Shown: positions 5,795 to 31,371 of the stretch, piece after piece
How positions within the stretch are numbered: position 1 is the first letter of the stretch
Layout of the letters: every line of letters starts with the position of its first letter
Source: a virus
IMG/VR virus record: IMGVR_UViG_3300045975_000176
Coordinates: 1-40,032 of that record
Length of the DNA stretch: 40,032 nucleotides
Strand: one strand, 5' to 3'
Made by a program: the position numbers and the translations under genes
The notes under the pieces: model-generated
Databases searched by the model: none
Told to the model about the DNA's origin: nothing
What the model saw: the letters and a program-made list of their open reading frames with translations, nothing else

Positions 5795-6753
5795 CCCATG
5801 AACGGCCGAATCCGCGGCCGTGCCGGTTGAATCGTGTTGTCGTGACCGACCAGCGCGATGAGCGACGCGTTCGATCCCTGATCGACGTCAGTCAGCTCGC
5901 CGCGATTGACCTTGAAGTAATTCCCCATGCGCTCGAGGAGCGCAGAGACCCAGAACTGCGGCACCGTATCGGCGTCATAGAGCAGGCGTTTCGGCAGACG
6001 GAGACACGGCACGCCGATGATCTGGCCCGCCGTGATCGGCTTCGGGTGCAACACGATCGTCGGAATCTCCACCTGACTCTGTTCCGGTAAGAGTTTCTGG
6101 AGCGTCGCGCCGGCGGAGTCCAGGCGCAGCGTCACCGTGCCGCGCGAGCTGGTGTGCTCGGTGTCCGGGGTGTCCGCCTCGGTGTACGCCTTCGTGAACC
6201 CGGTGATCGGCGGGAACCACGTGCCGGCCGCGACCGGCGTCGTGCCATTGAGCGTCAGCTGCGCCTCGTCGACGACGCCGTCACTGTTGATGCCCTGCAC
6301 GACGACGGCAATATCGGTGTCGCTGGCGTGGGACGAGACCAGTTCGAGCGCTTGGCCCGCCGCGTCCGGCTGCGTCGTCACCGCCGACACGCCGCCGAGC
6401 GAGTACCGCTCTGGCACGCTGGCCACTTCGAGGTCCGTGCCCGCCTCCGGAAACTCCATCCACAACGCGTCAAGGTCGTAGGGCACGAGATCGCGCCCGG
6501 TCGTGAGGTTCCGCACCCGCAGGTGCGGCGGAATGCGCCCGAAATACGGCGGGAGCGCATAGGTGCGCTGGTCCGCGACGGTCGTGACCTGCACGGGATC
6601 GGGCATCCGGTGATCTTTGAACGGATGGCGCAGCCAGATGTCGAGATAGGAGACGTTCAGGAGCCGTTCGGCGAGATCGCGCGACCGGGTATCGCCGTAC
6701 TCACCGTGCATGTGCAGAAACGTGTCGAGCAGCTCGCGGCGTGAGTTGTTCAT
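5791..6753 (-). CDS. Podovirus-type head-tail adaptor/tail accessory protein (320 aa)
   Basis: The N-terminal helical region (ELLDTFLHMHGEYGD then ERLLNVSYLDIWLRHPFKDH) and the following strands (DQRTYALPPYFGRIPPHLRV) are like adaptor-ring proteins that dock under the portal in short-tailed phages. A beta-sandwich-like domain (TTQPDAAGQALELVSSHASD, GTVTLRLDSAGATLQKLLP) occupies about 125-240, followed by a helical C-terminus (PQFWVSALLERMGNYFKVNR). It is placed just before the nozzle gene, the normal order. ATGA overlaps on both sides show tight coupling. Confidence in the adaptor role is moderate. Confidence 0.7.
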   Translation of the reverse strand: MNNSRRELLDTFLHMHGEYGDTRSRDLAERLLNVSYLDIWLRHPFKDHRMPDPVQVTTVADQRTYALPPYFGRIPPHLRVRNLTTGRDLVPYDLDALWMEFPEAGTDLEVASVPERYSLGGVSAVTTQPDAAGQALELVSSHASDTDIAVVVQGINSDGVVDEAQLTLNGTTPVAAGTWFPPITGFTKAYTEADTPDTEHTSSRGTVTLRLDSAGATLQKLLPEQSQVEIPTIVLHPKPITAGQIIGVPCLRLPKRLLYDADTVPQFWVSALLERMGNYFKVNRGELTDVDQGSNASLIALVGHDNTIQPARPRIRPFMG

Positions 6754-6923: not shown

Positions 6924-9067
6924 TACTTCAGCAGCAGCCGGAGCAAGGGCTTCAGGTAGCTGATGATTTCCGGCGGCAGCTCGGGCTCGGTGCGCGGATC
7001 GGGGAACTCGGACGGGGTGTAATAGAGCACCCACGCCGAACCGTTCCACTTATAGAGCTGGCCGTCAGGCGTAGCCCCGTTCGTGTTGTTCCACTCGCCG
7101 ACATCCATCGCCCAGAAGGCGACATTGACGAGCGTCGGCGTGATGGTGTTCATCTGCGCGAAGGTGCCGACGCCGACCCCATGGCCCGACTGCGCCGCGG
7201 CGGCGCTCCCGTCGAACCCGGCGGAGGCGTGGCCGTGCGGGTAGCCGTCGTGATCGAACTTATGCGTCCCAGAGCGGACCGGGTGATTCTGATTGTGCGT
7301 CCCGCCCCACGGCAGATTGGTGTTGTTGACGCCGACTGTGTTCAACCACTGGTAGCACCCTTCGACCACCTGATCGTACGGAATGACCGGGACGTGATCG
7401 CTCTGTGCATTGTTCGCCGTGCCGGTGTAGTTCGGCCGGTGGAGGTTGAACGAGAAATTGTTCGCCGTCGGCGCCGGGTCCGCGAGGATGTCATACGTGC
7501 CTTCGATGTCCCCCTTGGTCGAGCCGAGGTGAATGTAGTCGTCCGCGTCCAACCCGTGATTGGTCCGCGTGGCCGTCACGAGGCTGTTGGTGTAGCTGTA
7601 GTTGAACGTGCGCGACGAAATCCGCGTGCCCTGACCGGCGCACGAGTTATCGAAGAGCTGATTCACGCGGTTGATCTCGACGACGAGGGGCGGATCGTTG
7701 TCCGTGAACCGGTGCGGCTCGTTCGCCTGTTCCGCGGCGAGGTCGACGGTCAGCACGCCGATCCCATCCGTGACGCCGTTATTCGACCGGATGCGCCCAT
7801 GGCACATCGGCGACGCCGGGACGGTGGATCCGTTCCCGCCGTTGGAAAAGCACCCCTGGACCTTCAGCACCATGTCGACGTAGTCGTCTTCGATCCACGT
7901 CACATTGCCCGCTGTCGTGATTTCCCATTCGTGCCCGTTCGCGTGCGGTGTGATGGTGCCAATCGTGAACACTTTGAACGGATTGCCGGCGTCGTTGAGG
8001 TCCCAGATGCACTCGCCATCGGCGGAACAGAAATGCCGCCCCTCGTGTGAGTCCCAGCGGTTCGTCTCGAACTGGCCGACGCTATCGTTGTTGGCGAGGT
8101 CCTCGTAGTCGTTCATGAACGCGATCCAGGACCCAGAGCGGAGCTGCCCCTGGTTGCTCACGCCGACGAAGGTGTTGCCGTAGTATTCGCCGCACCGGCT
8201 GCCACGGAGACGCCCGCCGCTCTCGGTGCCGTGCGCGTTGATGTTGCCGTTCTGGACGTAGTTATACCGAAACACGTAGCTCGTGCCGCCCCACGAGTCG
8301 GTGACCGGAATGCCGCTCGTCAACGAACCCGTCTTGACGATGTAGTTCGACTCCATGAGGACGGTCGTCGTGGTCCCGCGTGGACACGGATCCGCCCACC
8401 TCTGATCGGGATAGGCAAAGCTGTTCGCGGTCGTCCCGACGTTCTGCATAAAGTCGGTGCCGGAGGTGCGCGAGAAATAGTTGTGGTCAATGAGGCCGTT
8501 CCCCGTGAACGGCTCGAAGAACTGATCCGGGTCACTGGTGGTCGTGAAGCGGATATGGTCGTACCGGAACATCCGATCATCGAGCGGATCGCCCGTGGTC
8601 TGTCCGTTGACTTGCAGCAACCCGGCGCCCGTGCCGAGGTTCGTCGCGCCATCGAGAAAGGCGACATGCGCGAGACGCGCCGTGGTGCCGGTCGCCGTCG
8701 TGATCACAAACAGCGACGACGTGCTGCCGGCTGGGAGGTCGTTCGTGATGATCGTGGTGCACGCTGACGGGATGCCTTCGATGCCGCCCATCGTCTCGAG
8801 CGTGCAATCCTCCTCGCCCCGGACGGTGATGTCGTGGGCCTGCGGCTGCAACGTGACCTGCGCCGTCCACGAGCACGAGCCCGTCTTGATATAGACCGTG
8901 TCAATTTCGCCGGCCGAGGCTTCCGCCTCGTCGATCACTTTCTGCACGTCTCCCTCTTCGCACGAGGCCGACGTGACCGAGTCGCGCAGGGTGAGCGTCT
9001 TCAGTTCTCCGGCGGTGGTGACGATCAGAATGATGATGGATGTCGCAACGCTGGCGGCTAACTTCAT
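6923..9067 (-). CDS. Exported beta-helix tailspike-like protein (714 aa)
   Basis: Residues 1-20 are a signal peptide (KLAASVATSIIILIVTTAG). Residues about 60-370 show repeated short strands with N/G-rich turns such as RYDHIRFTTTSD, GLIDHNYFSRTSG, VLMESNYIVKTGS and VFRYNYVQNGNINAHG, the signature of a right-handed parallel beta-helix, as in tailspike depolymerases and pectate-lyase-like enzymes. A middle insert and a C-terminal domain with WAMDVGEWNNT and GQLYKWNGSAWVLYYTPSEF follow; the last motif is common in fibre tips. At least 12 cysteines, several close together (CSADGECIW), suggest disulfides and hence an oxidising compartment. No catalytic residues can be assigned. ATGA overlap with the upstream gene. 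Confidence 0.8.
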   Translation of the reverse strand: MKLAASVATSIIILIVTTAGELKTLTLRDSVTSASCEEGDVQKVIDEAEASAGEIDTVYIKTGSCSWTAQVTLQPQAHDITVRGEEDCTLETMGGIEGIPSACTTIITNDLPAGSTSSLFVITTATGTTARLAHVAFLDGATNLGTGAGLLQVNGQTTGDPLDDRMFRYDHIRFTTTSDPDQFFEPFTGNGLIDHNYFSRTSGTDFMQNVGTTANSFAYPDQRWADPCPRGTTTTVLMESNYIVKTGSLTSGIPVTDSWGGTSYVFRYNYVQNGNINAHGTESGGRLRGSRCGEYYGNTFVGVSNQGQLRSGSWIAFMNDYEDLANNDSVGQFETNRWDSHEGRHFCSADGECIWDLNDAGNPFKVFTIGTITPHANGHEWEITTAGNVTWIEDDYVDMVLKVQGCFSNGGNGSTVPASPMCHGRIRSNNGVTDGIGVLTVDLAAEQANEPHRFTDNDPPLVVEINRVNQLFDNSCAGQGTRISSRTFNYSYTNSLVTATRTNHGLDADDYIHLGSTKGDIEGTYDILADPAPTANNFSFNLHRPNYTGTANNAQSDHVPVIPYDQVVEGCYQWLNTVGVNNTNLPWGGTHNQNHPVRSGTHKFDHDGYPHGHASAGFDGSAAAAQSGHGVGVGTFAQMNTITPTLVNVAFWAMDVGEWNNTNGATPDGQLYKWNGSAWVLYYTPSEFPDPRTEPELPPEIISYLKPLLRLLLK

Positions 9068-9894: not shown

Positions 9895-10980
9895 TTACTG
9901 CTCGGTAATGACGCCGTAGATCCCCACGGCAGCATTCGTGTTATCCGTGCTCGTCGGACCGCCCGTGATGCAATAGCCCAGGCCCGTGCCGAACGCGATG
10001 CCCTTCGTCCCGAACGAGAACGCAAAGCCAGCGCCCGATGTGCTCGCCGGAATCGCGAGCGAGAAGGTGAACCCGGTCGCGGAGCTGCACGTCGGCGACG
10101 TCGCGAGGTTGTAGAACCGGATGTAATAGATCGTCGAGGTCGTGTTGACCAAATAGACGCCCATCAACCGGCCGGCTTGGTTGTTCAGCAGCGTCGCGTT
10201 GTTCGATGCCGCGCTCACGACGGGGTTGCCCTGCGATCCGGTGTGTAGCGGATCGTCCGTCGACGTCACGACGCGCGTGGTCGTGCTATCGATGACGCCC
10301 GCGCCCGCCGAGCTCGTGCTGATGGCATTGCCCGACGCGTCATAGACGGTGACGCGCAAGCTGTTCGCCGTGGTGTTCGTGATCGCGTCACCGCCCGCGG
10401 CATCCTTCAACACGCCGTCGTAGGGCAGATCGTCGTTGACGACCTCGCTGCCGGTGGAGTCGACGAGCATCACGCGCAGCGCATCGGCGCCGGCCTGCGT
10501 GACCGCATCGCCCCCTGGCGCATCCTGCAAGACGCCGTCAAAGGACGCGGCCGCCGCGACGCTCGACGCACCGCCCGCCGGACTGCCGCGCAGGAATACC
10601 TCAACCTCGCCGGTCGACCATCCCGACGAGATCACGCGAATCGCGTTCTTCCCCGCCGTCGGACAGTCCCAAATCCCGTTGGCAGACGATCCGGTGACGG
10701 TGACGGTCTCGTCCGGCGCGAGACAGTTCACGGTCTGATAGTTTTCGAGGTCGATCGAGACCTGAAACTCCAGCGTGCCCGTCCACGTCCCGGTCAGCTG
10801 CACGCCGACGGTCGCCCAGCCGCCGGTCGGCAAACCGATACCGCCGGTCAGTAGCTGGACGGGTTCGTCGACGGCGTCGATCGTGCCCGTCGGCACAATC
10901 TGCGCGTCGACCCGTGACGGCGCCAGGAGAGCACCCGCCGCCAGGACGGCGCTCAGCCACCGACACATCCACATCTTCAT
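9895..10980 (-). CDS. Putative virion surface protein with signal peptide (361 aa)
   Basis: The start at 10980 gives a clear signal peptide (MKMWMCRWLSAVLAAGALL, then APSRVDAQ with a likely cut after VDA); upstream codons exist but would bury it. Residues 30-140 are a beta domain (WATVGVQLTGTWTGTLEFQV). Two near-identical repeats follow at about 155-230, FDGVLQDAPGGDAVTQ and YDGVLKDAAGGDAIT, then a C-terminal domain with YLVNTTSTIYYIRFYN, typical of phage proteins with a jelly-roll fold. The Cys pattern suggests disulfides. First gene after a strong intergenic hairpin. Role inferred as fibre, decoration or secreted adhesin. Confidence 0.8.
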   Translation of the reverse strand: MKMWMCRWLSAVLAAGALLAPSRVDAQIVPTGTIDAVDEPVQLLTGGIGLPTGGWATVGVQLTGTWTGTLEFQVSIDLENYQTVNCLAPDETVTVTGSSANGIWDCPTAGKNAIRVISSGWSTGEVEVFLRGSPAGGASSVAAAASFDGVLQDAPGGDAVTQAGADALRVMLVDSTGSEVVNDDLPYDGVLKDAAGGDAITNTTANSLRVTVYDASGNAISTSSAGAGVIDSTTTRVVTSTDDPLHTGSQGNPVVSAASNNATLLNNQAGRLMGVYLVNTTSTIYYIRFYNLATSPTCSSATGFTFSLAIPASTSGAGFAFSFGTKGIAFGTGLGYCITGGPTSTDNTNAAVGIYGVITEQ

Positions 10981-13233: not shown

Positions 13234-14577
13234 TTAGGCCGCCTTCACCGCGAGCTGGTTGACGTCGATCCCTTCCCCGCGCGCGTTCACGTTCGGACGC
13301 TGGCAGTGGAAGTTGTCCTGAATGAGGTAGTAAGCGGTGAACTCGTCGTACTCCGCCACCCACTTCAGGACGTGACCCTCATCGGCCGCCCACTCGCCTT
13401 CGTTCTCGACGTAGCGGGTCCACGAGGCTTTGTTGATGCCGAAGAGCATGCGATAGGGCGCATCGCGGTCCACGAAGAGCGGGATGTCGCCGTAGGTGAT
13501 GGCGCGGCCCGCGGGCTTCTTGGCCGCGACGGTGCCGCCGTCCGGACGCGAGAGATCCGCGCCCGTGTAGCGCCGGTCGGCCTCGAGCAACGTCAGATAG
13601 GCGCGGCGGACGGCATGCTCACACGCGAACATGTCGAACTGCTTGCCCGTCTTGATGTTGACCGCATCGACCATCTGCTGGATGGCGTCCAGCGAGAGCG
13701 CGCCGATGCTGGTGGCGACGTAGGCGTTGAGAATGGGATAGGTCGTGCGGCTCAACCCGTGGTAGGTCGCGACGTAGGTGCCGTCGTCGATCCCCGCGAG
13801 CAAGCCTTCCGGCTCCTGGTTGAGCGAGGTCTGCGTGGCCGACTGCGCGATGACGATCTTCGCGTTGTCGTCGCAGGTGATCGCTGTGTCGACCGTCACG
13901 GACGTCAGGGCGGTGGCGACCGCGGTAACGGTGGCGGTGCCCTGAATGTTGTTCGACGAGTCGAGGAACGCGAGGAACATGCCCGACGTCGCGTCGCCGT
14001 CGATGAAGCGCGCGCCGCCGGCCGAGCCCGCCACGTTGGCCGGGGAGTCGACTTCAATGGTGGTGTCGGCGGTCTGCGCGCCGTTGACCAGCGCGAGAAT
14101 GCCCGACCCATAGCCCCACACGACGCGATTGCGATGGAACGCCATCGCCTCGGTGAGCGCTTCCATTTCCGCCGGGATGACCTGCTGCCAAGACCCCTTC
14201 TTGTTGCGCGACTGTGCGATGACGTTCCGCTCGAACCCGACGCGCCCATACGTGTTGCGCATCGGAACTTCGAAGTTCTCGTACACCGAACGGCCGGCCT
14301 GCGGCAGACGGCCGCGATTCGGGATCGAGCCAATCGACCGGTTGCGGCCGATCATGATCGGGACCACCTTCTGGCGGCCGACCCATGAATCGTCCTTGAC
14401 CTCTGACTCCATCCACTTCGTCATGAGGTTCTCTTCGTTCACTTGGCTGTGGATCACGGGACCGTAGTCGTCTTTGAACAACGGATCCCACTGCGTGGTG
14501 TCGGACCCCGGCATCCACTGACGGTCATGCAGGCCGTCGAATCGAAGGTCCGAGCACGCGTGAAAACTGAATTTCAT
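13234..14577 (-). CDS. Major capsid protein (447 aa)
   Basis: Long, well-expressed-type gene with AGGAG eight bases before the ATG at 14577. The N-terminus (WDPLFKDDYGPVIHSQVNEE), the extended loop (GRLPQAGRSVYENFEVPMRN, then YGRVGFERNVI), the spine-helix-like EMEALTEAMAFHRNRVVWG and the C-terminal TGKQFDMFACEHAVRRAY then DIPLFVDRDAPYRMLFG followed by EYDEFTAYYLIQDNFHCQRP are the plan of HK97-fold capsid proteins without an N-terminal protease domain. A beta insertion lies at about 165-240. Located directly after the scaffold gene. It builds the icosahedral shell. Confidence 0.88.
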   Translation of the reverse strand: MKFSFHACSDLRFDGLHDRQWMPGSDTTQWDPLFKDDYGPVIHSQVNEENLMTKWMESEVKDDSWVGRQKVVPIMIGRNRSIGSIPNRGRLPQAGRSVYENFEVPMRNTYGRVGFERNVIAQSRNKKGSWQQVIPAEMEALTEAMAFHRNRVVWGYGSGILALVNGAQTADTTIEVDSPANVAGSAGGARFIDGDATSGMFLAFLDSSNNIQGTATVTAVATALTSVTVDTAITCDDNAKIVIAQSATQTSLNQEPEGLLAGIDDGTYVATYHGLSRTTYPILNAYVATSIGALSLDAIQQMVDAVNIKTGKQFDMFACEHAVRRAYLTLLEADRRYTGADLSRPDGGTVAAKKPAGRAITYGDIPLFVDRDAPYRMLFGINKASWTRYVENEGEWAADEGHVLKWVAEYDEFTAYYLIQDNFHCQRPNVNARGEGIDVNQLAVKAA

Positions 14578-14596
14578 TCGCGAGACTCCTGCCCCC

Positions 14597-15658
14597 CTAG
14601 CCGATCTGGCGAATGCGGCGCGACACGTCCGCGACCGTGCGTTCTTTCGTCGCACGGGCGGGCGTGGGCGCACCGGGACCGCCAGCCTGATGCCGGGGGA
14701 GCGATTGATTGCGTTGGGCCATACGCTGCGCAGCAGCTCCGGCGGCAATGCGTTGCGTGGTCGGGTTCACACCCGCCTTCTTCAGGTAGTGCTTGATGGT
14801 GGCGTTCGGATCGAGGGTCTTCCCGTTCATCCGGGCGTAGTGGTAGCTGCCCTTGACACTGTCGAGAAACAGGTCGCGGATGTTCGGGTCCTTGATCTGC
14901 TTGGCGGCAGCGTCGATGCCCGCCGCCCAGCGTGATTCGATCGCGGACTGGCGATCGCGCTGCACGCCACCTTCAAGCGAATCGATCCGTTTCAACGCCC
15001 GTTGGTGATCCGCGAGCATGGTGCGAAGCTGGCCCCGAAGTTGATGGACCGTGCGCGCCTGCTCGAGGAAGTACTTGCCGGATTCGTCCGCTGTGTTCCA
15101 GGGGACCTGTTCGTTGAACGGCTCGTCCTGCTGCGGGACTGCCGGGCGACGTGTCGTGGCGGGGGTGCCGCCGTCCTCGTCATCCGCGTCGTCGCGCCCC
15201 TCGATGAGGAGGCGCCGCAACCTGGCATTGTTCTGGAGACGCTGTTGAAGCGCCTGATATTGACTGGCCGCGTGCATCAGACCGTCGAGATCGACGCCCT
15301 TCAATCGCGCGTTCACGGCGACGTTCTTGGCAACCTTGCGCTTCAGGCGTCTGTTGTCCTTCAGCAGCTTGCGAAACGTCTTTTCGTCGAGCGGGCGTGT
15401 GTCGTCGTCGTCGTCGTCGTCCCTGCCTGCGACAAGGTCTACGTCGTCGTCCTCGCCCTCTCCCTCGGATCCGGCGTGACGCTCAGCGGCGTCATCGCCT
15501 GCCTCACCGAGGGCAGGGTCGTCGGTGCCGTCGTCCAATCCGGGCTCATAGCCGGGATCGCCTGCGTCGGCGCCTTCTCCGCCAGCGCCGGCCGCGCCAT
15601 CTTCTGGAGCCAGAAGGGGCATGGCGACCGTGCTGCGGAACATGCGAAAGAGGTGCAT
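14597..15658 (-). CDS. Putative scaffolding protein (353 aa)
   Basis: Start ATG 15658 has GGAG eight bases upstream. Residues 10-95 are an acidic, disordered region ending in a D-run (GRDDDDDDDTRPLDEKTF); residues 90-150 are a basic coiled coil (LLKDNRRLKRKVAKNVAVNA); the second half is helical (HQLRGQLRTMLADHQRALKR) with a basic C-terminal tail (KERTVADVSRRIRQIG). Acidic N-terminus plus coiled coil plus basic C-terminus, right between portal and capsid, is the hallmark of internal scaffolds, whose basic end binds capsid protein. No protease motif is seen. Confidence 0.8.
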   Translation of the reverse strand: MHLFRMFRSTVAMPLLAPEDGAAGAGGEGADAGDPGYEPGLDDGTDDPALGEAGDDAAERHAGSEGEGEDDDVDLVAGRDDDDDDDTRPLDEKTFRKLLKDNRRLKRKVAKNVAVNARLKGVDLDGLMHAASQYQALQQRLQNNARLRRLLIEGRDDADDEDGGTPATTRRPAVPQQDEPFNEQVPWNTADESGKYFLEQARTVHQLRGQLRTMLADHQRALKRIDSLEGGVQRDRQSAIESRWAAGIDAAAKQIKDPNIRDLFLDSVKGSYHYARMNGKTLDPNATIKHYLKKAGVNPTTQRIAAGAAAQRMAQRNQSLPRHQAGGPGAPTPARATKERTVADVSRRIRQIG

Positions 15659-15691
15659 GGTCTGCTCTCCTCGAAAATGAGCGGGCAAATG

Positions 15692-15747
15692 AAAAGGGCG
15701 GAACACCGACGCAGCGCTTGCGGCGCTGTCGCGTCAGGTCCCGCCCT
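15692..15747 (-). terminator. Terminator/attenuator-like stem before the scaffold gene
   Basis: On the minus strand an outer 7-bp stem AGGGCGG / CCGCCCT encloses a second arm (AGCGC...GCGCT with flanking CGAC/GTCG), and the outer stem is followed by TTTTC. This is terminator-shaped and lies about 35 bases upstream of the scaffold start, so it could attenuate read-through from the portal side or be an upstream unit's end. The tract is short, so an mRNA leader structure is an equal possibility. Confidence 0.5.
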
Positions 15748-15773
15748 CGGAACTCACCCGCCCTTGTTGATCG

Positions 15774-15824
15774 CTGAACAGCGTGCGGTGGGCTACCGCA
15801 GGCCCGTCGGCCTGTGCTGTTCAG
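15774..15824. ncRNA. Perfect three-way-junction RNA-like element
   Basis: A 9-bp outer helix CTGAACAGC / GCTGTTCAG encloses two perfect 5-bp hairpins, GCGGT-GGGCT-ACCGC and AGGCC-CGTC-GGCCT, joined by GT on each side. Every base of all three stems pairs. The strand that is transcribed is probably the minus one because the operon runs left, but the fold is possible on both. This could be a structured RNA or a protein-binding leader; function is unknown. Confidence 0.5.
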
Positions 15825-15831
15825 ACGTGCC

Positions 15832-15852
15832 GTGACGCGCGTACCGCGTCAC
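15832..15852. repeat. Perfect 8-bp inverted repeat
   Basis: GTGACGCG and CGCGTCAC separated by five bases (CGTAC), seven bases away from the three-way junction. Part of the hairpin cluster; could be an RNA stem or a DNA-binding site. Confidence 0.6.
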
Positions 15853-16187
15853 TCTTGGTTGCGGGTCGCTGAGTCGAACAGCGCTGTGAGAGGTAATGAG
15901 CCTCTCTAGGACCCACGCCCACCCGCGACAACTCTTGTCGTTCTTCAGCGTGCACGAAGCACGGTCAAACCGCCCATACCCCCGTCAGGTTGTGCGACCG
16001 GGCCCGTCGTCCGCTGGCACCGTCGACCGACGGTGGAGACGCCCTCCGCAGATAACAGCCCGGTCGGCACCTTGTGCACGATCGCGAGAAGGACCCCGGT
16101 CCACCGAGCGGACGGCCGGGCCAATTCGAACGTCGCGAGCTGGGGTGTGACAGCTCTGCACCCGGGTCCGAGATCCTTCACGTGACC

Positions 16188-18644
16188 TCACATCGGCGGC
16201 GGCGGTGGTTCCTCCTCCCTCACCGGCCGCAGCATGCCGGCCTCCAACAGGTCATCGACCGACGGGCCCTGCATCGGCGTCGGCACGCCTGGCGACAACA
16301 CCCCAGCCGAGACCGCTCCGTCGAGCGCTTGCGGCGGCTGTTCCTGTGCCGGCTGCAGCGCCCCCGACTCGATCGCGCCTTCGAGCGCGCCGCCGGATCC
16401 GGGCGGTGGGGCCTCTTCCTTCGCCGGCGGCTGCGGACCAGCGGCGACCGCGGCCTGCTGCATCTGCTTCATCACCAGCGTCTGTTCGAGCATCTTCACG
16501 CTCTGCACCATGGCCATATAGACCGGCGCGTTCGCCGTGCGCATCTCTTCGGCCTCCTCGGTCTTGAGGAACTGCTTTTTGAGGTAGATGTGAACGGGCA
16601 ACTCGATCATCTCGGGGTCGGGCGCTGCGGCCAGGACCTCGTCCGGCGTGCGGGCGGCCTTCCACCGATCCAGCTCGCGCGCCACCTGCTTGCGGTCGTT
16701 GTCGAGCGACTTCTTGAAGTGCGCCAGGTTCATCTCGACGAGCAACTTGCCACTCACTTCGGGATCCATCTGCGGCATCAGCACGCCCATCGACACGGCT
16801 TCCTTCAGCCGGAGCTGCTGCATCAGCGGGGACTTCGGCCAGGCGCTGGCGCGGTCGACCTGAATGTCAATCTGGCCGGAGAGGTCGGCGGCGGCGAACT
16901 GCTTGATCTCCCATTGCTGGTTTTCGCCCCGGATGCGGCGGAAGCGCGGCGACCACGCGCACTGCCGAGCGATGTCGAGCAGCATGAACGACAGATCGAT
17001 CTCGAACTGGATCAACCCGTCGAGCGGGTTACGGAACTTCGCTTGCCCGCGCTCCTCGAGGATCTGCACTTCGCCCAGCGTCGGATCGCCCTCCGGCCGC
17101 GAGCCGGCCAGCACAGAGTTGAGCCCGCTGACCTCCTGCATGTTGGCCTTGATGCGATCGAGGTAGTTGAACAGCGCCTCCGGCGGATTGATGCCGCGCG
17201 TCTCGGTGGGCTTCTGGCCGTCCATTGAGCGGTAGCGCACGTGCTGGCCCGGGACGCCGGTCGGCTCGTCGATGAACGTGACCGTTTCGGGCACGTAGGT
17301 CGTCGGCGCCGAGTTGTGCATGATGATCAACTGCACCAGCGCGTCGACCATGTTGTAGCTCACCTGCAACGGCGCGAGGTCGTCGGCCGGCGGATGGCCG
17401 AACTGTGTCGCCATGCCTTCGGTCCACGAGCGGATGAGGATGTTCTTGTAGCGCCGGCCCTCGGAATCCTGGAACGGCAGCGGGCCTGGCGTCTGGGCCG
17501 TCTGGTCCTCGATCAGCTGCTCGCCGATCATCACGCCGTAGAACCCGTCCGGAAAGTAGAACTCCCCGTCATCGATCGGGTCGTGCTGCAGGCGATAGAC
17601 GACCACGCCATCGAACTCGCCACTGCCGCCGGACTGACTGGTGGCGTTACCGGATTGCGGGCTCGCGAGCGACTGGAGCTGGTCCGCATAGGCGCGGGTG
17701 AGCGCGCCGTCCGCCTTGGCGCCTTTGTCCTTCACGAGGTCACGCGCCGACGGCCACATCCGGACGATGTCCTCGGGCGCCATGCGCGTGTGCGTGAGCA
17801 CCCACGGCGTGGCCTTCGCGTTCGCCCGCCGGCAGGAGGACGGCAGCGAGTATTCGACGCTGGGGATCGGCTGCGCGCAGATCCGGCCAATCGGCAGGTT
17901 CACCGACATGGGCGCCGGCACGCCGAGCTCGTCCGCCTGCGTCGCCAGCTCGAACGCCTCGGTGTCCGTGTTCTCGCACTCCGGGTTCGGACACTTGCCG
18001 AGTTCGTCGATCTCAACCGGCGTGGCCATCTCGCCGCACACGGTGCACGTGTAGACGTCGACGGGCGCCTCGCCGTACTTCGGATCGTTGTCGTAGTAGA
18101 GGCAGTAGGCGACGCCGTTGGTGAGCGCCGAGAGACGATTCAACAGGTGACGATGCCCCTGGCTGTCATAGCCGCACTCTTCGCGGAGCACCGGGACCGC
18201 ATCAATCGCCACTTCGGACGTGGCGCGGTCCTCGTCGGCGTCGGTCTTCGGGGCGAAGAGCTGCGCGGGCTCTGCCTGGTCGAGGATGGCGGTGATCCCG
18301 TCGATGTGCGCCGTAAAGAGGTTCGTGACTGGCCGTGGCACCCACTCGGGCAGGCCGCCCTTGTCCGGGTCGCTCCCGCGCTCGACGTAGCGCTGCGCGG
18401 ACGGATCCCAGATCGACCAATGGTTCGCTTGGCCGCCGCGATCGAGCTTGTGATGCCAGATGTCCGCCCGATCGCGCAGCAGGCGGGCGGTGTGGCTCTT
18501 GGCGTCGCGAACGCAGCGCTCCATGAGCATCTTGCCCTGGCCCTGGTAGTCGACCGTGCGGGCCTCCGGCTCGGCGCCCGCGGCGTCCGGCAGGGGGACA
18601 GCGGCATCCTGTGCCGCGGGATCATCAGGAGGCGGTACGTGCAC
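16188..18644 (-). CDS. Portal protein (818 aa)
   Basis: Large protein at the expected place before the scaffold and capsid genes. The N-terminal half has MERCVRDAKSHTARLLRDRA, WVPRPVTNLFTAHIDGITAI and LFAPKTDADEDRATSEVAID, the start of a podovirus-type portal in which the clip/stem domain follows. A zinc-ribbon-like insert lies at C200, C203, C218 and C223. The core includes QVSYNMVDALVQLIIMHNSA and a long helical C-terminus, then a Pro/Gly-rich, probably disordered tail ending EEEPPPPPM. GTG start 18644 overlaps the previous gene by 20 bases and has only a weak ribosome site. Twelve copies would form the DNA entry ring. Confidence 0.85.
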   Translation of the reverse strand: MHVPPPDDPAAQDAAVPLPDAAGAEPEARTVDYQGQGKMLMERCVRDAKSHTARLLRDRADIWHHKLDRGGQANHWSIWDPSAQRYVERGSDPDKGGLPEWVPRPVTNLFTAHIDGITAILDQAEPAQLFAPKTDADEDRATSEVAIDAVPVLREECGYDSQGHRHLLNRLSALTNGVAYCLYYDNDPKYGEAPVDVYTCTVCGEMATPVEIDELGKCPNPECENTDTEAFELATQADELGVPAPMSVNLPIGRICAQPIPSVEYSLPSSCRRANAKATPWVLTHTRMAPEDIVRMWPSARDLVKDKGAKADGALTRAYADQLQSLASPQSGNATSQSGGSGEFDGVVVYRLQHDPIDDGEFYFPDGFYGVMIGEQLIEDQTAQTPGPLPFQDSEGRRYKNILIRSWTEGMATQFGHPPADDLAPLQVSYNMVDALVQLIIMHNSAPTTYVPETVTFIDEPTGVPGQHVRYRSMDGQKPTETRGINPPEALFNYLDRIKANMQEVSGLNSVLAGSRPEGDPTLGEVQILEERGQAKFRNPLDGLIQFEIDLSFMLLDIARQCAWSPRFRRIRGENQQWEIKQFAAADLSGQIDIQVDRASAWPKSPLMQQLRLKEAVSMGVLMPQMDPEVSGKLLVEMNLAHFKKSLDNDRKQVARELDRWKAARTPDEVLAAAPDPEMIELPVHIYLKKQFLKTEEAEEMRTANAPVYMAMVQSVKMLEQTLVMKQMQQAAVAAGPQPPAKEEAPPPGSGGALEGAIESGALQPAQEQPPQALDGAVSAGVLSPGVPTPMQGPSVDDLLEAGMLRPVREEEPPPPPM

Positions 18645-21311: not shown

Positions 21312-23876
21312 CTAGCGGCGGACCAGACTCCCCATCACGCCGCCCGGGCGTTTCTTGTGGCGCTTGTCGAGCGATTCGTAGTGCTGCCGCTCGAGGGCGG
21401 GCAGGTGCGCGTAGGGGTCGACGATGAGCGTGCGGTCCTGGAACGGACGCGCCTCGAAGAACCGGCCGATGTCCTCGTAGCAGTTATGAACCAGGAGGCC
21501 GTTGGCGAAGAACTCGTGCGCGTCTTCGACGGTTAGGTCATACACCGCGGCGCGCCCGCTTGGCCGCACGGTAGTAACACTTCGGGTCACCGCAGAAGCG
21601 CTTGTTCGGTCGCTTCGTGGCGAATCGAGCGCCGCACCCATCGCACCGGACAAAGCGCGTCGGCTTCGACTCTCGCTGTCGTTCCTCGAACGAACGATTG
21701 ATGCACTTGGCGGAACAATAATTGACGTCGCGCAGCTGGTCACCGGCGATGTCAGCGGGTCCCCCACACATCGCGCAGGTCGTGAGGACACGAGGGATTG
21801 CCAGCCGCGCTTCAGAAGCGTATCCAGCGTTCTCGCGACGCGCAGCGCGCTGGCGAGGAGTCGGATTCCTACTATGGAGCGAGAGATGCTGCTTTCGAGG
21901 CAAGAGTTCGAGATTGTCGGGATGGTTGTTTGCACGGTTCCCATCCTTGTGGTGCACATGACAGCCAAACGGCAGACGCCCGTGCGTGTCTCGCCACACG
22001 CGGCGGTGAAGGCGACCGTAGCCACGGCGCGCAAAGTAGCGACCGCATTTGTAATAGACCACGTCCCGCCACACCTGCGCTGTCTCTGACAGCACGATTG
22101 GAGCTTCGACCACAAGGAAACCTCTGTCGCGTAATACGGTATGAAGTCGTTGGATATTTCGTCGACACGGATGAATCCACGCGTTTTGTCAAAGATTCCA
22201 TGGTTCCCAGTGGCGCGCACGGCGCCGCCAGGTGTCACGACCTCGAACACCTCGGCATCTGGCGATGTCTGCCAGGCACGCAACACCCGCCGATAGCCTC
22301 GGCGCGTCAGGAGCCTGTCACCGGCCAGAATCCGCTCGATCGGCGTCAGTCCTTCGTCGGTGTGCACCAGCGTGCCCTCGGCGATGCAGTGGTTCTCGGA
22401 GTCTTCGTCCTCCACGTCGGGATCTTCCTCGTCCCATGGGATGTCCGGGACCGTGCGGATCGCCTCCGGGCACGCAGTCGTGATCGTCCAGTTCGGCAAC
22501 CCGTCGACGTTGGTCTGCAGGGCATCGAGCCAGCGCTGCGGCCGCGACTCGCGCGCCGGCCGTCCTGCGGCACCGAGCCGCACGTTGCAGATGTGCAGCA
22601 GCTCGTCGCAGTAGACCTCGTAGATGGACTTCGCGCGCCCCAGTTCCTCCCGGCTCGCCTTCATCGACGGGTCGATCACGATCCACTCGGGCTTGTAGTT
22701 CCGATGTTCGAGCAGCTGGCGAATCATCTGCGCTTGTTCCACGTCGCGCTTGCGGGGCATGTAGAACTCGAAGAACGTCCGCACGTGGCCACCGGGCAGG
22801 CCGGCATGGAGATGGAACGACCACGGGACGCCATAGCCATAGTCGACCGAGCCCCAGATCGGCGCTCCCGCCGGCGGCTTCCAATGCGCGTTGGGGATCA
22901 CGTGCCAGGGGATCACCTGACCGACCGACAGCGCCGCCGAGAGCGCCAGCAGATCCTCGTCGGTCTCGTGGATCATCTTCTTCTCGCGCCAGAACGGGCC
23001 GACGATCATCTGATCGTTGGCGTCCCAATCGCCCTCCGCCAGTTGCTTCGCCTTGTCGCCACCGAGCGCGTAGACCTTGGCCAGGTAGTGCGGATCGGCG
23101 TTGGCCAGCGCCATGTTGTCGTGGAACCACGCCGGGATGAACTGCCGCGTGGGCACGAACTCGGGTTTGCTCGGATCGCCGGGGAGCGGCAACGGGCGCC
23201 ACACCTCGAAGGGTTGCGGCGGCAGTCGGCCCGGGCCCAGCTCCTCGGGCCGAGGCCGCAAGAACCAGCGTTTGAGCCATCCATGGCCGACCCCGCCCGG
23301 GTTCGACATCAGGCGGATGCGCTTGCGCATGCCGAGACGCGCCGAGCGGACGCGCGTCGCCAGGTATTTCACCTGGAACTCGGTGAAGTGCGACGCCTCG
23401 TCGATGAACAGCGCGACCCACTGCGCCGACTGGTAGCTGTAGACATCCTTCTCGTGCTGCGCGTGACAGAACCAGAGCTGTGAGCCGTTCCAGAACGTCG
23501 CCACCAAATCCGAGGCATTGAACTTGGCGATGTAATCCGGCACGAGCAGCAGGAAGCGGCTGATGATCTCCTGCTTCAGTTCCTTCAACTTGCGGCGGAA
23601 GAACGCGACCTTGACGTTCGGGTTCTCGATGCAGATCGTGATGGCTTCGACCAGGCCGAACTCGGACTTGCCGCCACCGACGGCGCCGCCGTAGAAGAGG
23701 ACCTCGGCGACAGAGGCGTGCGCAAACGCCTGTTTCGGCTGCGGGACGCAGCGATCACGGCGGGGATGGCAGGGGGGATCGTGCACGCACTCGCCGGACG
23801 GGTCGGTATAGCCCCAATTCCAGCCGGCCCGAAGTGACGCGAGGCGTCGCGCCTCCTTCGAGCGCTTACCGCTCAT
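21312..23876 (-). CDS. terL: Terminase large subunit, interrupted by an intein (854 aa precursor)
   Basis: The ATPase and nuclease that packages phage DNA. Walker A is GGAVGGGKS at 63-71; Walker B is LFIDE at 156-160 followed by ASHFT. The RNase H-like nuclease starts at GSVDYGYGV (D345), with IVIDPSMK (D402) as a second acid. Residues 497-798 are an intein, placed within the conserved acid/His element ENH-CYEDIGRFF near the C-terminus of the nuclease; splicing would give about 552 residues, the usual size. The extended Cys/His N-terminus (CVHDPPCHPRRDRC) is unusual. An HNH gene lies in another frame inside the intein. ATGA overlap with the upstream gene. Confidence 0.92.
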   Translation of the reverse strand: MSGKRSKEARRLASLRAGWNWGYTDPSGECVHDPPCHPRRDRCVPQPKQAFAHASVAEVLFYGGAVGGGKSEFGLVEAITICIENPNVKVAFFRRKLKELKQEIISRFLLLVPDYIAKFNASDLVATFWNGSQLWFCHAQHEKDVYSYQSAQWVALFIDEASHFTEFQVKYLATRVRSARLGMRKRIRLMSNPGGVGHGWLKRWFLRPRPEELGPGRLPPQPFEVWRPLPLPGDPSKPEFVPTRQFIPAWFHDNMALANADPHYLAKVYALGGDKAKQLAEGDWDANDQMIVGPFWREKKMIHETDEDLLALSAALSVGQVIPWHVIPNAHWKPPAGAPIWGSVDYGYGVPWSFHLHAGLPGGHVRTFFEFYMPRKRDVEQAQMIRQLLEHRNYKPEWIVIDPSMKASREELGRAKSIYEVYCDELLHICNVRLGAAGRPARESRPQRWLDALQTNVDGLPNWTITTACPEAIRTVPDIPWDEEDPDVEDEDSENHCIAEGTLVHTDEGLTPIERILAGDRLLTRRGYRRVLRAWQTSPDAEVFEVVTPGGAVRATGNHGIFDKTRGFIRVDEISNDFIPYYATEVSLWSKLQSCCQRQRRCGGTWSITNAVATLRAVATVAFTAACGETRTGVCRLAVMCTTRMGTVQTTIPTISNSCLESSISRSIVGIRLLASALRVARTLDTLLKRGWQSLVSSRPARCVGDPLTSPVTSCATSIIVPPSASIVRSRNDSESRSRRALSGAMGAALDSPRSDRTSASAVTRSVTTVRPSGRAAVYDLTVEDAHEFFANGLLVHNCYEDIGRFFEARPFQDRTLIVDPYAHLPALERQHYESLDKRHKKRPGGVMGSLVRR
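21483..22388 (-). mobile_element. TerL intein (302 residues in frame)
   Basis: Begins with Cys497 (CIAEGTLVHTDEGLTPIERI, block A) and has a block-B-type TGNH at 556-559. It ends with VYDLTVEDAHEFFANG then LLVHN (blocks F and G); the next residue is Cys799. Splicing residues Cys1, His-Asn and +1 Cys are all present. Splicing segments add up to roughly 112 residues, so it is a mini-intein whose middle, about residues 588-778 in this frame, is the other-frame reading of an HNH gene and should carry no endonuclease of its own. Confidence 0.88.
21538..22113 (-). CDS. HNH homing-type endonuclease nested in the TerL intein (191 aa)
   Basis: Read in the -1 frame relative to TerL. Residues about 15-80 hold a group-I-intron-like HNH domain: DVVYYKCGRYFARR, LHRRVWRDTHGRLPFG, CHVHHKDGNRANNHPDNLEL, then KQHLSLHS. 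Zinc-finger units follow (CAMCGG, CSAKC, CDGCG, CGDPKC). The GTG start has GAGG about seven bases upstream. Its TGA falls inside VYDL (Y779/D780 of TerL), exactly where the intein's block F starts. The frame is open upstream of the GTG without a start codon, so a frameshifted product from the intein is another possible route. Expected to cut an intein-less terL and drive intein homing. Confidence 0.85.
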   Translation of the reverse strand: MVEAPIVLSETAQVWRDVVYYKCGRYFARRGYGRLHRRVWRDTHGRLPFGCHVHHKDGNRANNHPDNLELLPRKQHLSLHSRNPTPRQRAARRENAGYASEARLAIPRVLTTCAMCGGPADIAGDQLRDVNYCSAKCINRSFEERQRESKPTRFVRCDGCGARFATKRPNKRFCGDPKCYYRAAKRARRGV

Positions 23877-28494: not shown

Positions 28495-31371
28495 TTAGGC
28501 CGCCTTCCGTGCGCGGTGTCCGAGGTTGGCCGCCAGCAGCGCAGCCGCGACGTGCGGCGGCACGGAGTTGCCACACATCCGAGTCTGCGCCTTCTTCGAG
28601 AGCTTCGTGGGCACGGGCAAGCCGAGGTCAGTGACCGTGACGACGTGTTCGATTTCGTAGTCGTGCTCAACGACTAGGCGGATCAAGAGTGAGCTCGCGC
28701 TTGACGTTGGCGCGAGAGTGGACCCACCGATGGCATCGAGCACAAAGGAGCACAAGGTTGTCCAGTGCGAGGCGAAGCTCTGGGAAGGTTGCCCATCCGC
28801 CGATATGGTGCACTGCGTATCCGGGACCGCGGCGAACCCGGTCCAGGCATCGCCGGCAACAGCCACCGTCTCGCTGGAAGACGGCGCGGCAGGCCCTGAG
28901 CCATGGCTTTGATGCGTAGAAAGCAAGCTGCTCTGGCGTACAGCCGCCCTTCCAGTTTGGCGCGCGTGGACCGGTAAAGAATGCTCGCGAGCAAGCATTC
29001 GAGCAAAATCGCCGATGTCGGTAGGTAGGGGAAACGAGACGCCCTCGGCCGCAGAACTCGCAGACGAGGGTGACTTTTCTGGACTGCGTAGCACCAGAAC
29101 GTGCTGCCCGCAGTCGATACGCGCATTCACGACTACAGGTGCGACGTTGTGGGCTTGAGGCTCGGACGAGATGTGGCCGCGCGCAGACTTCGCACGGTCT
29201 CGACTCGCGAGGGTTTGGCGGCCGCCCGCCGCCTGGGTTGCGTGGTCGCGCCATACCTGAATCTCCGCCTCGGTCTTGAAACTAGGAAAACCCTGGCAGC
29301 GGAACAGCTCGCGCGGGGTCAGCATGCGCATCCCGATGTCGACGATGGCGTATTCCTCGCCGGCAATCGTGACCGTGACCAGCCCGAAGCGCTCCTTGGT
29401 GGTGAGCGTGTCCACCGGCGCGTCGAGCGGACGGCCGGAGACGTTGGTCCCGAAGTACTTGACCAGGAAGGCCGTGACGAGCGCCTTGTTCTCGCGGCAG
29501 ACGATGGTGTCGACCGGGCGCTGGAGCTTCTGACCGGTGGCCTCGTGACCGCCGTTGTGCTTCGCCAGGAACGCGGCGACGAGCCCGAAGCGGTTGGAGG
29601 TATGCAGGCTGAAGTCGATGCACTCGGCCGCCGTGCGATAGGGCTGGCGCTTCGGGCCGTGCGTGGGTTTCGGCCACACGATCGGCTGACCATCGAAGCG
29701 GACAATGACGAACAATCGCTTGCGGCGCGTCGGGGCGCCGTGCTCGTCAGCCACCAGCTCGCGATACTCCACCACGCCGCCGAGGTTCTGGAGACGCGAC
29801 ACCCAGCGACGGAAACTCTGCCCCTTCTTCGCGGCGTTGGGTCGCCCGTCCTTGCCGAGCGGACACCAATCGCGGAACTCTTCCACGTTCTCCATGAACA
29901 GCATGTCGGGCGGGCGTCCGGTCGCTTTCTTCAGCTCGACGACGCAGCGGACCAGCTCCCACGCGAGCCCACGAACGCGACGCGCGCGGTTGCGGTCGCG
30001 GAACGGTCGACCGCCGCGCGCCTTCGAGTGATAGGTGCAGTTGTGCACGATGATGCCGTCCGCGACGAAGCTCTCGTCTTGGGCGACGCTCAGGTTGTAG
30101 ACCGTGAACAACTCGGAGCCGGTATGGATGCGTTCGCGGATGGGCGCCCACAGCAGGCCGTCCTCGACCGCAGTGTGCGCGTGCGATTCGGTGATGCTCT
30201 CGCGCCATTTCACCGACCAGGCTGGACGCACGTTGACGCGCCGCCCAGCGATCTCGTCGGGCTGATTGGTCCTCAGCACCACGTGCGCGGCGTGACCCAG
30301 CGAGGCGACCAGCGCCTTCAGCCCGAACGCGAGCGCCTTGGAAACGGTCGTCGCGATTGTCAGCGGCGTGCCGACGCCGTGCGCTACGCACCCGTCTCCG
30401 GACAGGTAGCCATCCAGAAACCACTGACGCGACTCGACCGACAGCCCAAGCAACCACCCAGGGATGGTTTTCTCTGCAGCACCGTGGCCGAAGTGCTCAC
30501 GGAGCCATTCAACTAATCCCCGATGGCTCGTCGAGAACTGATAGGCGGTCCCTGTCTCCCGCTCAGTCCACGCCAACTCCCCTGACCGGCTGCGTGTGCC
30601 AGCGCGTGGCCACTGCGCCAGCGACTCACGGAGGTCGTCCGCCTCGTGGCGTCCGCAGGTGAGGACGAGTTCTGCGCGCACGTCTGTGAGCCGCGTCCAG
30701 CCGTCGGCGACGTAGCGACCGGCAAGCCAAAGCAGTTTGAAGTCGACCTGTAGTTCACGCTCGCGATGCACCGGCACCGCAGGCGCAGCCGCCCCTGGGA
30801 ATGTCGTCGGCGACGCCCAGTACTGGCCGCGCTCAAGGCTCTTCGCAGGCGCCCAGTACGCCTGGCTCAGGCGCCTCGCCATTCCGGCGCCGCTCGTGCG
30901 GTGCTTCACGAGGAAGGGATGCTCTCCACTGACGAACAGGCCGGGGTGACCGAGCCCACGCACCTGGAGTAGCGGGCGCTCAGTGCTCATCGTGTTCGTG
31001 ACGCGGCGCCACCGTTGCTCGTGGGTCAGCACTTCCTCGCCAATTTCGATTTCCTCGATCGGCACGTAGCCGCGTCGCGCGAGCACCATCGTGCCGGCCG
31101 GGAAACAGTCAGGCGAGAACCAGGCGAAGCGGCAGTGCTTGCCCGTGAGCAACGTGCCGTAGTCGACCGAGCGGATGTTGGTCTGCACGTGGCGCGTCTT
31201 CGGATGGTTCGCGGCGTGCATCGCGAGCGCTTCCGCGTCGTGGTTGATGGCCACGTCGGGCGAGCGGCCGGTGGCCCACTCGATCCCGACCGAGGCGCCA
31301 CCACCACCCGCGAACCCGTCGATACAGCCTTCGTCGTCGTAGAGCCGGACTTGCGGAACGCGGGGCTTCAT
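28495..31371 (-). CDS. DNA cytosine-C5 methyltransferase with an intein and a nested HNH insertion (958 aa precursor)
   Basis: Motif I is DGFAGGGGASVGIEWA (18-33). Motif IV is FSPD-C, split by the intein so that the catalytic cysteine (residue 445) is the first residue after it. Motif VI is ENVEEFRDW (about 494-502), VIII is RRKRLFVI (549-556), IX is LTPRELFRCQGFP (684-696), X is GNSVPP near the end. Residues 89-444 are the intein. Residues 697-901 (615 bases, a multiple of three) are an inserted Ser/Ala-rich segment that is the other-frame reading of an HNH gene. Without both, about 397 residues remain, the family's normal size. It would methylate phage DNA against host restriction. Confidence 0.9.
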   Translation of the reverse strand: MKPRVPQVRLYDDEGCIDGFAGGGGASVGIEWATGRSPDVAINHDAEALAMHAANHPKTRHVQTNIRSVDYGTLLTGKHCRFAWFSPDCFPAGTMVLARRGYVPIEEIEIGEEVLTHEQRWRRVTNTMSTERPLLQVRGLGHPGLFVSGEHPFLVKHRTSGAGMARRLSQAYWAPAKSLERGQYWASPTTFPGAAAPAVPVHRERELQVDFKLLWLAGRYVADGWTRLTDVRAELVLTCGRHEADDLRESLAQWPRAGTRSRSGELAWTERETGTAYQFSTSHRGLVEWLREHFGHGAAEKTIPGWLLGLSVESRQWFLDGYLSGDGCVAHGVGTPLTIATTVSKALAFGLKALVASLGHAAHVVLRTNQPDEIAGRRVNVRPAWSVKWRESITESHAHTAVEDGLLWAPIRERIHTGSELFTVYNLSVAQDESFVADGIIVHNCTYHSKARGGRPFRDRNRARRVRGLAWELVRCVVELKKATGRPPDMLFMENVEEFRDWCPLGKDGRPNAAKKGQSFRRWVSRLQNLGGVVEYRELVADEHGAPTRRKRLFVIVRFDGQPIVWPKPTHGPKRQPYRTAAECIDFSLHTSNRFGLVAAFLAKHNGGHEATGQKLQRPVDTIVCRENKALVTAFLVKYFGTNVSGRPLDAPVDTLTTKERFGLVTVTIAGEEYAIVDIGMRMLTPRELFRCQGFPSFKTEAEIQVWRDHATQAAGGRQTLASRDRAKSARGHISSEPQAHNVAPVVVNARIDCGQHVLVLRSPEKSPSSASSAAEGVSFPLPTDIGDFARMLAREHSLPVHARQTGRAAVRQSSLLSTHQSHGSGPAAPSSSETVAVAGDAWTGFAAVPDTQCTISADGQPSQSFASHWTTLCSFVLDAIGGSTLAPTSSASSLLIRLVVEHDYEIEHVVTVTDLGLPVPTKLSKKAQTRMCGNSVPPHVAAALLAANLGHRARKAA
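28667..29254 (-). CDS. HNH endonuclease nested in the methyltransferase gene (195 aa)
   Basis: Read in the -1 frame relative to the methyltransferase. N-terminal zinc-finger units (CEVCARP, CSRECAYR, CEFCGRGR, CSNACSRAF) lead to an HNH nuclease domain (CRRCLDRVRRGPGYAVHHIG then LDNLVLLCARCHRWVH). ATG 29254 has GGAG eight bases upstream. Its TGA at 28667-28669 overlaps the codons where conserved methyltransferase sequence returns (GTT-GAG; EHDYEIEH). A 6-bp repeat CCTAGT occurs at both borders. No room for a group I intron core. It is likely a free-standing homing-type nuclease gene lodged between motif IX and X. Confidence 0.85.
   Translation of the reverse strand: MARPRNPGGGRPPNPRESRPCEVCARPHLVRASSPQRRTCSRECAYRLRAARSGATQSRKVTLVCEFCGRGRLVSPTYRHRRFCSNACSRAFFTGPRAPNWKGGCTPEQLAFYASKPWLRACRAVFQRDGGCCRRCLDRVRRGPGYAVHHIGGWATFPELRLALDNLVLLCARCHRWVHSRANVKRELTLDPPSR
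30040..31107 (-). mobile_element. Methyltransferase intein with LAGLIDADG motifs (356 aa)
   Basis: Starts at Cys89 (CFPAGTMVLARRGYVPIEEI, block A), with SGEH (148-151) in place of block B TxxH, and ends FTVYNLSVAQDESF then VADGIIVHN; the next residue is Cys445. The endonuclease domain has two dodecapeptide-like motifs, LLWLAGRYVADGW (214-225) and QWFLDGYLSGDG (316-327). Thus it is a full intein with an in-frame homing endonuclease, inserted at the invariant catalytic residue of motif IV. Confidence 0.92.

Follow-up and report, generated by a model that had tools for sequence, protein, structure and literature searches.

A hallmark of an initiator tRNA is the C1xA72 mismatch at the end of the acceptor stem. 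Formylation requires that the 1-72 pair be missing or weak, and GGG:CCC in the anticodon stem serves as the ribosomal P-site determinant of initiators. Reported bacterial tRNAs retain the canonical cloverleaf (PMC11551756). Unmodified E. coli machinery can charge and use even a tRNA that lacks the D-arm (PMC11551756), so that shortening of this arm does not preclude function. Published work describes phage tRNAs acting against tRNA-targeting defences (PMC10264068, PMC11555353). According to a survey of phages of Shigella, E. coli and Salmonella, tRNA-fMet is generally avoided where its anticodon is the target of a nuclease (PMC10264068). The survey also cites VapC, bacterial enzymes that cleave initiator tRNA. 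Our literature search, conducted outside the subscription journals, found no paper on phage tRNAs of the compact or the initiator type.

Here a compact initiator-like tRNA is described from a structured spacer between the portal and putative scaffold genes of a virus record. The record spans all 40,032 bases of the stretch analysed, referred to below as the window. Like bacterial tRNA-fMet, the window tRNA carries CAU in a CUCAUNA loop, C1xA72, A73, CCA and an intact T-arm with TTCGA; it is 72 nt long instead of 76-77 nt, has a 4-nt D-loop and lacks nucleotides 8-9. The very short D-loop is shared with tRNA-Sec (PMC7609411), which has a 6-bp D-stem and a 4-nt D-loop; in tRNA-Sec, however, the acceptor, D-stem and variable arm are long and the anticodon is UCA, whereas the window tRNA is short throughout. 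The tRNA-Met of Bacillus phage BSP38 is likewise a short phage gene with a 4-bp/4-nt D-arm, scoring 63 bits with the covariance model R1 described below. It is annotated and clustered, whereas the window tRNA stands alone in a head operon and is left unannotated by ARAGORN and Rfam.

Genome setting of the spacer

The head genes of the window lie on the minus strand (Table 1). The preliminary description of this stretch gave correct coordinates and inverted repeats and placed it between portal and scaffold, leaving the strand unnamed; the tRNA and both neighbouring genes lie on the minus strand. The portal is identified by PHROG comparison. The same comparison returned no match for the scaffold, which takes its name from its position only. 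Two near-identical IMG/VR genomes (99.6%) show 0 mismatches to the window across the 529-nt spacer. A search of the phage collection for near DNA relatives of the window found none, and relatives were collected by capsid and portal searches (capsid identity 66-86%).

Table 1. Coordinates of the spacer, its elements and the neighbouring genes in the window.
Feature	Position	Strand	Basis
Terminase large subunit	21312-23876	(-)	
Portal, upstream of spacer	16188-18644	(-)	PHROG portal, E 1.8e-13
Portal-scaffold spacer	15659-16187	(-), reads 16187 -> 15659	Fold z -5.4, without coding signal
Element A: long hairpin directly after portal stop, interior GCCCGGC	16079-16186	(-)	Hairpins there in relatives
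Element B/C: second long hairpin and motif GGGGGTATGGGCGGTT	15950-16078	(-)	Predicted fold
Compact initiator-like tRNA(CAU)	15927-15856	(-)	Model R1 match; equivalents at same locus in L006, L012
Element E: 8-bp hairpin 3' of CCA end	15832-15852	(-)	Predicted fold
Element F: three-way junction just 3' of tRNA	15774-15824	(-)	Shared with L006, L012, L011
GGGC, candidate pseudoknot partner of F loop GCCC	15760-15763	(-)	Loop/partner complementarity
Element G: two-part hairpin, 12-bp outer, ~18-bp inner, UUUUCAUUU after inner stem	15679-15763	(-)	
Putative scaffold, downstream of spacer	14597-15658	(-)	Position; homologs precede capsid gene in relatives
Major capsid (MCP)	13234-14595	(-)	PHROG major head protein, E 2.5e-42

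The minus-strand spacer RNA has a predicted folding energy of -268.7 kcal/mol, and 0 of 100 dinucleotide shuffles is equally stable; the plus strand reaches a z of -3.7. When codon usage is scored with 12 of the phage's genes as the training set, none of the spacer frames scores like a gene, and none matches Pfam. The best-scoring frame, 15945-16181(-), obtains -0.05, a value under 95% of coding windows and within the non-coding range. A 68-aa frame at 15985-16191(-), with a GTG that overlaps the portal stop, was rejected as a hidden protein gene on its non-coding-like score and its lack of a Pfam match, and four further spacer frames were rejected on the same grounds. The description of the stretch as gene-free thus holds for proteins, by codon score and Pfam, but not for RNA, since it contains a tRNA gene.

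A compact tRNA(CAU) in the spacer

The core of the feature is an unannotated compact initiator-like tRNA, a variant of a phage-encoded tRNA lodged in a clade-specific structured spacer. It was first spotted in an alignment by eye to the spacer tRNAs of relatives. The 72 nt include an encoded CCA. The acceptor stem consists of 6 bp (C-GCGGGU / ACCCGC-A-ACCA) with the C1xA72 mismatch and A73, and the D-arm of 4 bp and a 4-nt loop (GGGC-GUGG-GUCC), followed by UAG. The anticodon arm (AGAGG-CUCAUUA-CCUCU) is followed by CACAG, and the T-arm (CGCUG-UUCGACU-CAGCG) closes the cloverleaf, both arms having 7-nt loops.

The covariance model R1 finds a single match in the window, that of the tRNA (64.8 bits, E 1.4e-14), with an alignment spanning positions 1-72. 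R1 holds no member of the window's clade, so that this match is an independent test; part of the score comes from features common to all CAU tRNAs. ARAGORN leaves the tRNA undetected in the window, as does Rfam RF00005 at its gathering score, a detection threshold set on canonical tRNAs and not a structural requirement. A further Rfam search at E 10 over 801 bases gave nothing credible and no tRNA match. By identity, the element is almost certainly a tRNA, and its function is what we infer below. The preliminary description read the stretch as a possible structured RNA; a conserved structured RNA is indeed present, and its identifiable part, missed there, is the tRNA.

The CUCAUUA loop presents the CAU anticodon, and a strong 1-72 pair is missing. 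Among the related lineages with an initiator-type tRNA, position 1-72 is non-Watson-Crick in all 11 and C-A in eight. At 29-31:39-41 the window tRNA has AGG:CCU, with A29-U41, whereas bacterial tRNA-fMet has GGG:CCC; it is therefore termed initiator-like and not a full initiator.

The tRNA in related lineages

An initiator-type CAU tRNA is found in 11 of about 18 portal-bearing related lineages, several of the remainder being short contigs. In the nearest three relatives (L006, L011 and L012) it occupies exactly the same position between portal and scaffold. The L011 gene at this locus is a textbook tRNA-Met(CAU), recognized by ARAGORN and by Rfam with 63 bits, and those of L006 and L012 are compact. 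Across the window, L006 and L012, every stem of the tRNA is still paired through compensatory changes, and the CCA is retained. The preliminary description had held that missing covariation or conservation of the stems in relatives would speak against a structured RNA; with the stems kept in this way, the reading survives.

In six other lineages (L008, L010, L013, L014, L016 and L017) the tRNA lies directly upstream of the portal; in L022 it spans the portal start, and in the L009 record it stands at another position. R1 scores reach 68 bits in L012 and 60.6 in L006, and range from 47 to 63 bits in canonical relatives.

Other features were seen at these loci. Directly upstream of the portal, L008, L010 and L013 share a conserved H-type pseudoknot-like motif, absent from the window, which takes the form CCGATGCCCCGC...GCATCGGTGGTTGCGGGG in L010 and has changed stems in L008 and L013. 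A small zinc-ribbon-like ORF, also absent from the window, overlaps the portal stop in L006 (from ~6335) and L020 (from 6848); the L006 copy has a weak Pfam Zn_ribbon match (E 0.005). Downstream of its capsid gene, L011 encodes a tRNA-Ser(GCU) at 10538-10631(-), on the opposite strand.

Compact tRNAs as a recurrent phage class

A DNA pattern was derived from the window, L006 and L012, consisting of a short distance from the acceptor to the D-loop GG, followed by CAU, the T-loop and ACCA. It matches at least 120 viral-contig stretches. When at least 5 of the 6 acceptor pairs have to form in the compact register, 39 different sequences are left among the matches listed; a few of these are probably canonical tRNAs read out of register, and a few others are close variants of each other. 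ARAGORN fails on 15 of these 39. Similar compact tRNAs, about 30 among the matches listed, are present in viral contigs unrelated to the window as well as in two phage isolates, and several adjoin terminase genes. The pattern is absent from 188 genomes (~1 Gb) of the bacterial phylum of G010.

Outside the window's clade, 25 clear compact cases among the matches listed align without gaps. Their D, anticodon and T stems covary: 94.8% of cells are paired, and 150 double-change cells are observed against 44 expected from shuffles, with far lower values in slid controls. The 4-bp D-stem with a 3-nt loop was not demanded by the search and covaries as strongly as the other stems. These 25 sequences constitute R1. 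An anticodon equally close to the 5' end is found in only 4 of ~350 non-Met tRNAs at the same loci, a comparison in which the Met sample was chosen by the pattern.

The initiator features recur in part. Among the matches listed, 1-72 is G-C in 2 of the 39 compact tRNAs, compared with 220 of 316 non-Met tRNAs at the same loci (p 1.7e-15), and GGG:CCC is present in 6 of the 39. In phages unrelated to the window, a compact tRNA follows the terminase large subunit gene by 348-404 nt (L095, L171), lies close to one (L156) or precedes one by 13 nt (L169). Others belong to tRNA clusters, among them that of Bacillus phage BSP38, so that placement in the head operon appears frequent and is not universal.

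Structures around the tRNA

Long hairpins precede the tRNA. At the site of element A, most relatives have hairpins with differing stem sequences, even where the spacer is 130-180 nt long, and a fixed-window test against random control windows gives p = 0.017; the case for a family-wide hairpin is moderate. The predicted element B/C has a weaker claim to conservation, with the GGGGGTATGGGCGGTT motif and a similar hairpin recurring in L012.

Downstream of the tRNA, a common order runs through the window, L006, L012 and L011: tRNA, in some cases a small hairpin, three-way junction, long U-run hairpin and scaffold start. The small hairpin, element E in the window, has equivalents after the tRNA in L006 and L012. 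The three-way junction, element F, lies exactly where the preliminary description had placed it and is built from a 9-bp closing stem and two hairpins. Across these four sequences, on which the conservation of F and G is based, the closing stem and the second hairpin show compensatory changes, and the loop of the second hairpin reads UNG(C/U)CCA. This loop may pair with GG(G/A)C a few bases past the junction, as GCCC/GGGC in the window, L012 and L011 and as GUCC/GGAC in L006, a candidate pseudoknot suggested by one compensatory change. The same GGGC starts the outer stem of element G, so that the pseudoknot and this stem are alternatives. In the exonuclease-resistant RNAs (xrRNAs) of flaviviruses, a three-way junction has a hairpin loop able to pair with bases immediately downstream of it; the likeness to F is one of topology only, F being in a bacterial context. 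A viral-contig search for further F junctions returned 37 stretches, with the tRNA-junction arrangement confined to the known clade. The other matches, which have a distant TCAG, were rejected as one unrelated repeated sequence.

The two-part helix of element G is repeated in all four lineages, and by eye its long stem is followed by the U-run UUUUCAUUU in each; a simple terminator scan did not flag it. From its sequence G looks terminator-like or RNase III-like. The gap between G and the scaffold start measures only ~40 bases, and a search of it for promoter-like sites gave none. Full termination here would silence the capsid genes, which makes partial termination, processing or antitermination at G more likely. 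Phage theta ribozymes have been published beside tRNAs (PMC10879173). No such match was found in the spacer, and Rfam gave no match to a known self-cleaving ribozyme as a 3' element.

Proposed role of the tRNA and its alternatives

We consider it probable that the locus encodes a late-operon initiator-like tRNA(CAU) with a minimal D-arm, which is released from the structured spacer and sustains late initiation. This reading starts from the observed tRNA fold, CAU anticodon, CCA, initiator-type 1-72 mismatch, conservation at the locus and recurrence as a phage class. Against it speak the absence of GGG:CCC, shared by most of the compact tRNAs, the lack of a promoter-like site, the moderate test result for hairpin A and the small set of four sequences behind F and G. 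The late transcript from the portal would read through the spacer, and the long hairpins (A, B and G), together with RNase P/Z-type ends, would separate the portal mRNA, the tRNA and the scaffold-capsid mRNA. The tRNA would be charged with Met, probably formylated, and would add to or replace the host initiator tRNA late in infection, when the host supply is low or is being attacked. The structured 5' end of the scaffold-capsid message, or an attenuator before it, would be formed by junction F and hairpin G. The leader or stability role suggested in the preliminary description may apply to the segments that follow the tRNA on its 3' side.

A more ambitious version appears decidedly doubtful. 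In it, minimal-D-arm initiator-like tRNAs of head and packaging operons would form a phage class of their own, sustaining initiation while evading host enzymes that recognize the elbow, and in the window's clade the tRNA would be coupled to a pseudoknotted junction shielding the 5' end of the capsid message.

Two alternatives to the initiator-like tRNA are rather unlikely, and about equally so. The spacer may be mainly an mRNA element (a terminator, RNase III sites or a 5' stabilizer of the scaffold-capsid message) with the tRNA as a passenger, as the long hairpins A, B and G, the G helix and U-run kept in four lineages and junction F with its candidate loop-downstream pseudoknot could suggest. 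However, F and G are limited to a four-member clade, whereas the initiator-type tRNA occurs in 11 lineages and is thus the more conserved part. Alternatively, the tRNA may be a non-decoding mimic, acting as bait for tRNA-cleaving defences or as an RNase P/Z signal that cuts the portal-scaffold mRNA. The reduced elbow and the missing GGG:CCC are in keeping with a mimic, as are a site between genes of very different copy need and the published phage tRNAs directed against such defences. Yet the anticodon, A73 and the 1-72 mismatch are all kept, needless in a bait or a cutting signal, and in relatives the tRNA lies upstream of the portal, so that portal-scaffold processing is not its common role.

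It is very unlikely that the locus is a decaying tRNA relic (pseudogene) or a tRNA-derived attachment site, without present function. Although the D-arm is reduced, standard finders fail on the window tRNA and a longer near-identical genome carries a separate tRNA-Arg-like fragment that could be an attachment site, the stems of the tRNA stay paired by compensatory changes in the window, L006 and L012, the CCA is kept, and the same reduced form with a covarying D-stem exists in unrelated phages. An attachment site does not fit the full 5' half and the conserved place in the head operon.

A pRNA-like packaging RNA, or a set of portal or terminase binding sites, can practically be dismissed: the spacer does adjoin the portal gene, and several compact tRNAs elsewhere adjoin terminase genes, but nothing was found in favour of a packaging RNA, Rfam at a cut-off of E 10 still gave no match to a pRNA, conservation is of tRNA features, canonical tRNAs occupy the same position in relatives, and protein sites leave the CAU loop, the TTCGA T-loop and the encoded CCA unexplained.

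The recurrence of small initiator-like tRNAs in phages, often as the phage's only tRNA and with half of them escaping a standard finder, suggests phage action on translation initiation, and the compact initiator-like tRNA is a defined molecule open to testing. Many late-operon gaps that appear empty in phage genomes may contain missed tRNAs.

Further observations

Further tRNAs were encountered in isolated phages. An annotation-free 3-kb stretch of Erythrobacter phage vB_EliS-L02 holds seven ARAGORN tRNAs and a compact tRNA(CAU) that ARAGORN misses. In Erythrobacter phage ZS04, the terminase and portal genes flank an initiator-type tRNA(CAU) that has canonical length and no annotation (record 8406-8482), and in Mesorhizobium phage vB_MseS-P1 a tRNA-Met (record 6210-6284) lies inside the frame of gp13, annotated as 'transcriptional repressor'.

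YrlA, bound by Ro60, is also a tRNA-shaped RNA; the window tRNA differs from YrlA mimics by its full acceptor stem and CCA. A Y RNA reading was rejected, the TROVE domain (PF05731) being absent from the window record and the seven relatives searched. In L140, from an 88-kb viral contig, 30 nt separate a compact tRNA(CAU) on the minus strand at ~1339-1411 from a gene for a TROVE (Ro60-like) protein, possibly a tRNA-Ro pairing.

The longer near-identical genome carries a 59-nt tRNA-Arg(UCU)-like sequence without a D-arm (L056, G001:C1:21886-21944, Rfam 23.7 bits), which may be what is left of an attachment site or a further reduced tRNA. In the window, a 958-aa protein encoded at 28495-31371(-) has partial matches to DNA methyltransferase families, and its residues 89-450 match a family named anaerobic ribonucleotide reductase, which may reflect an odd fused or misnamed domain set.
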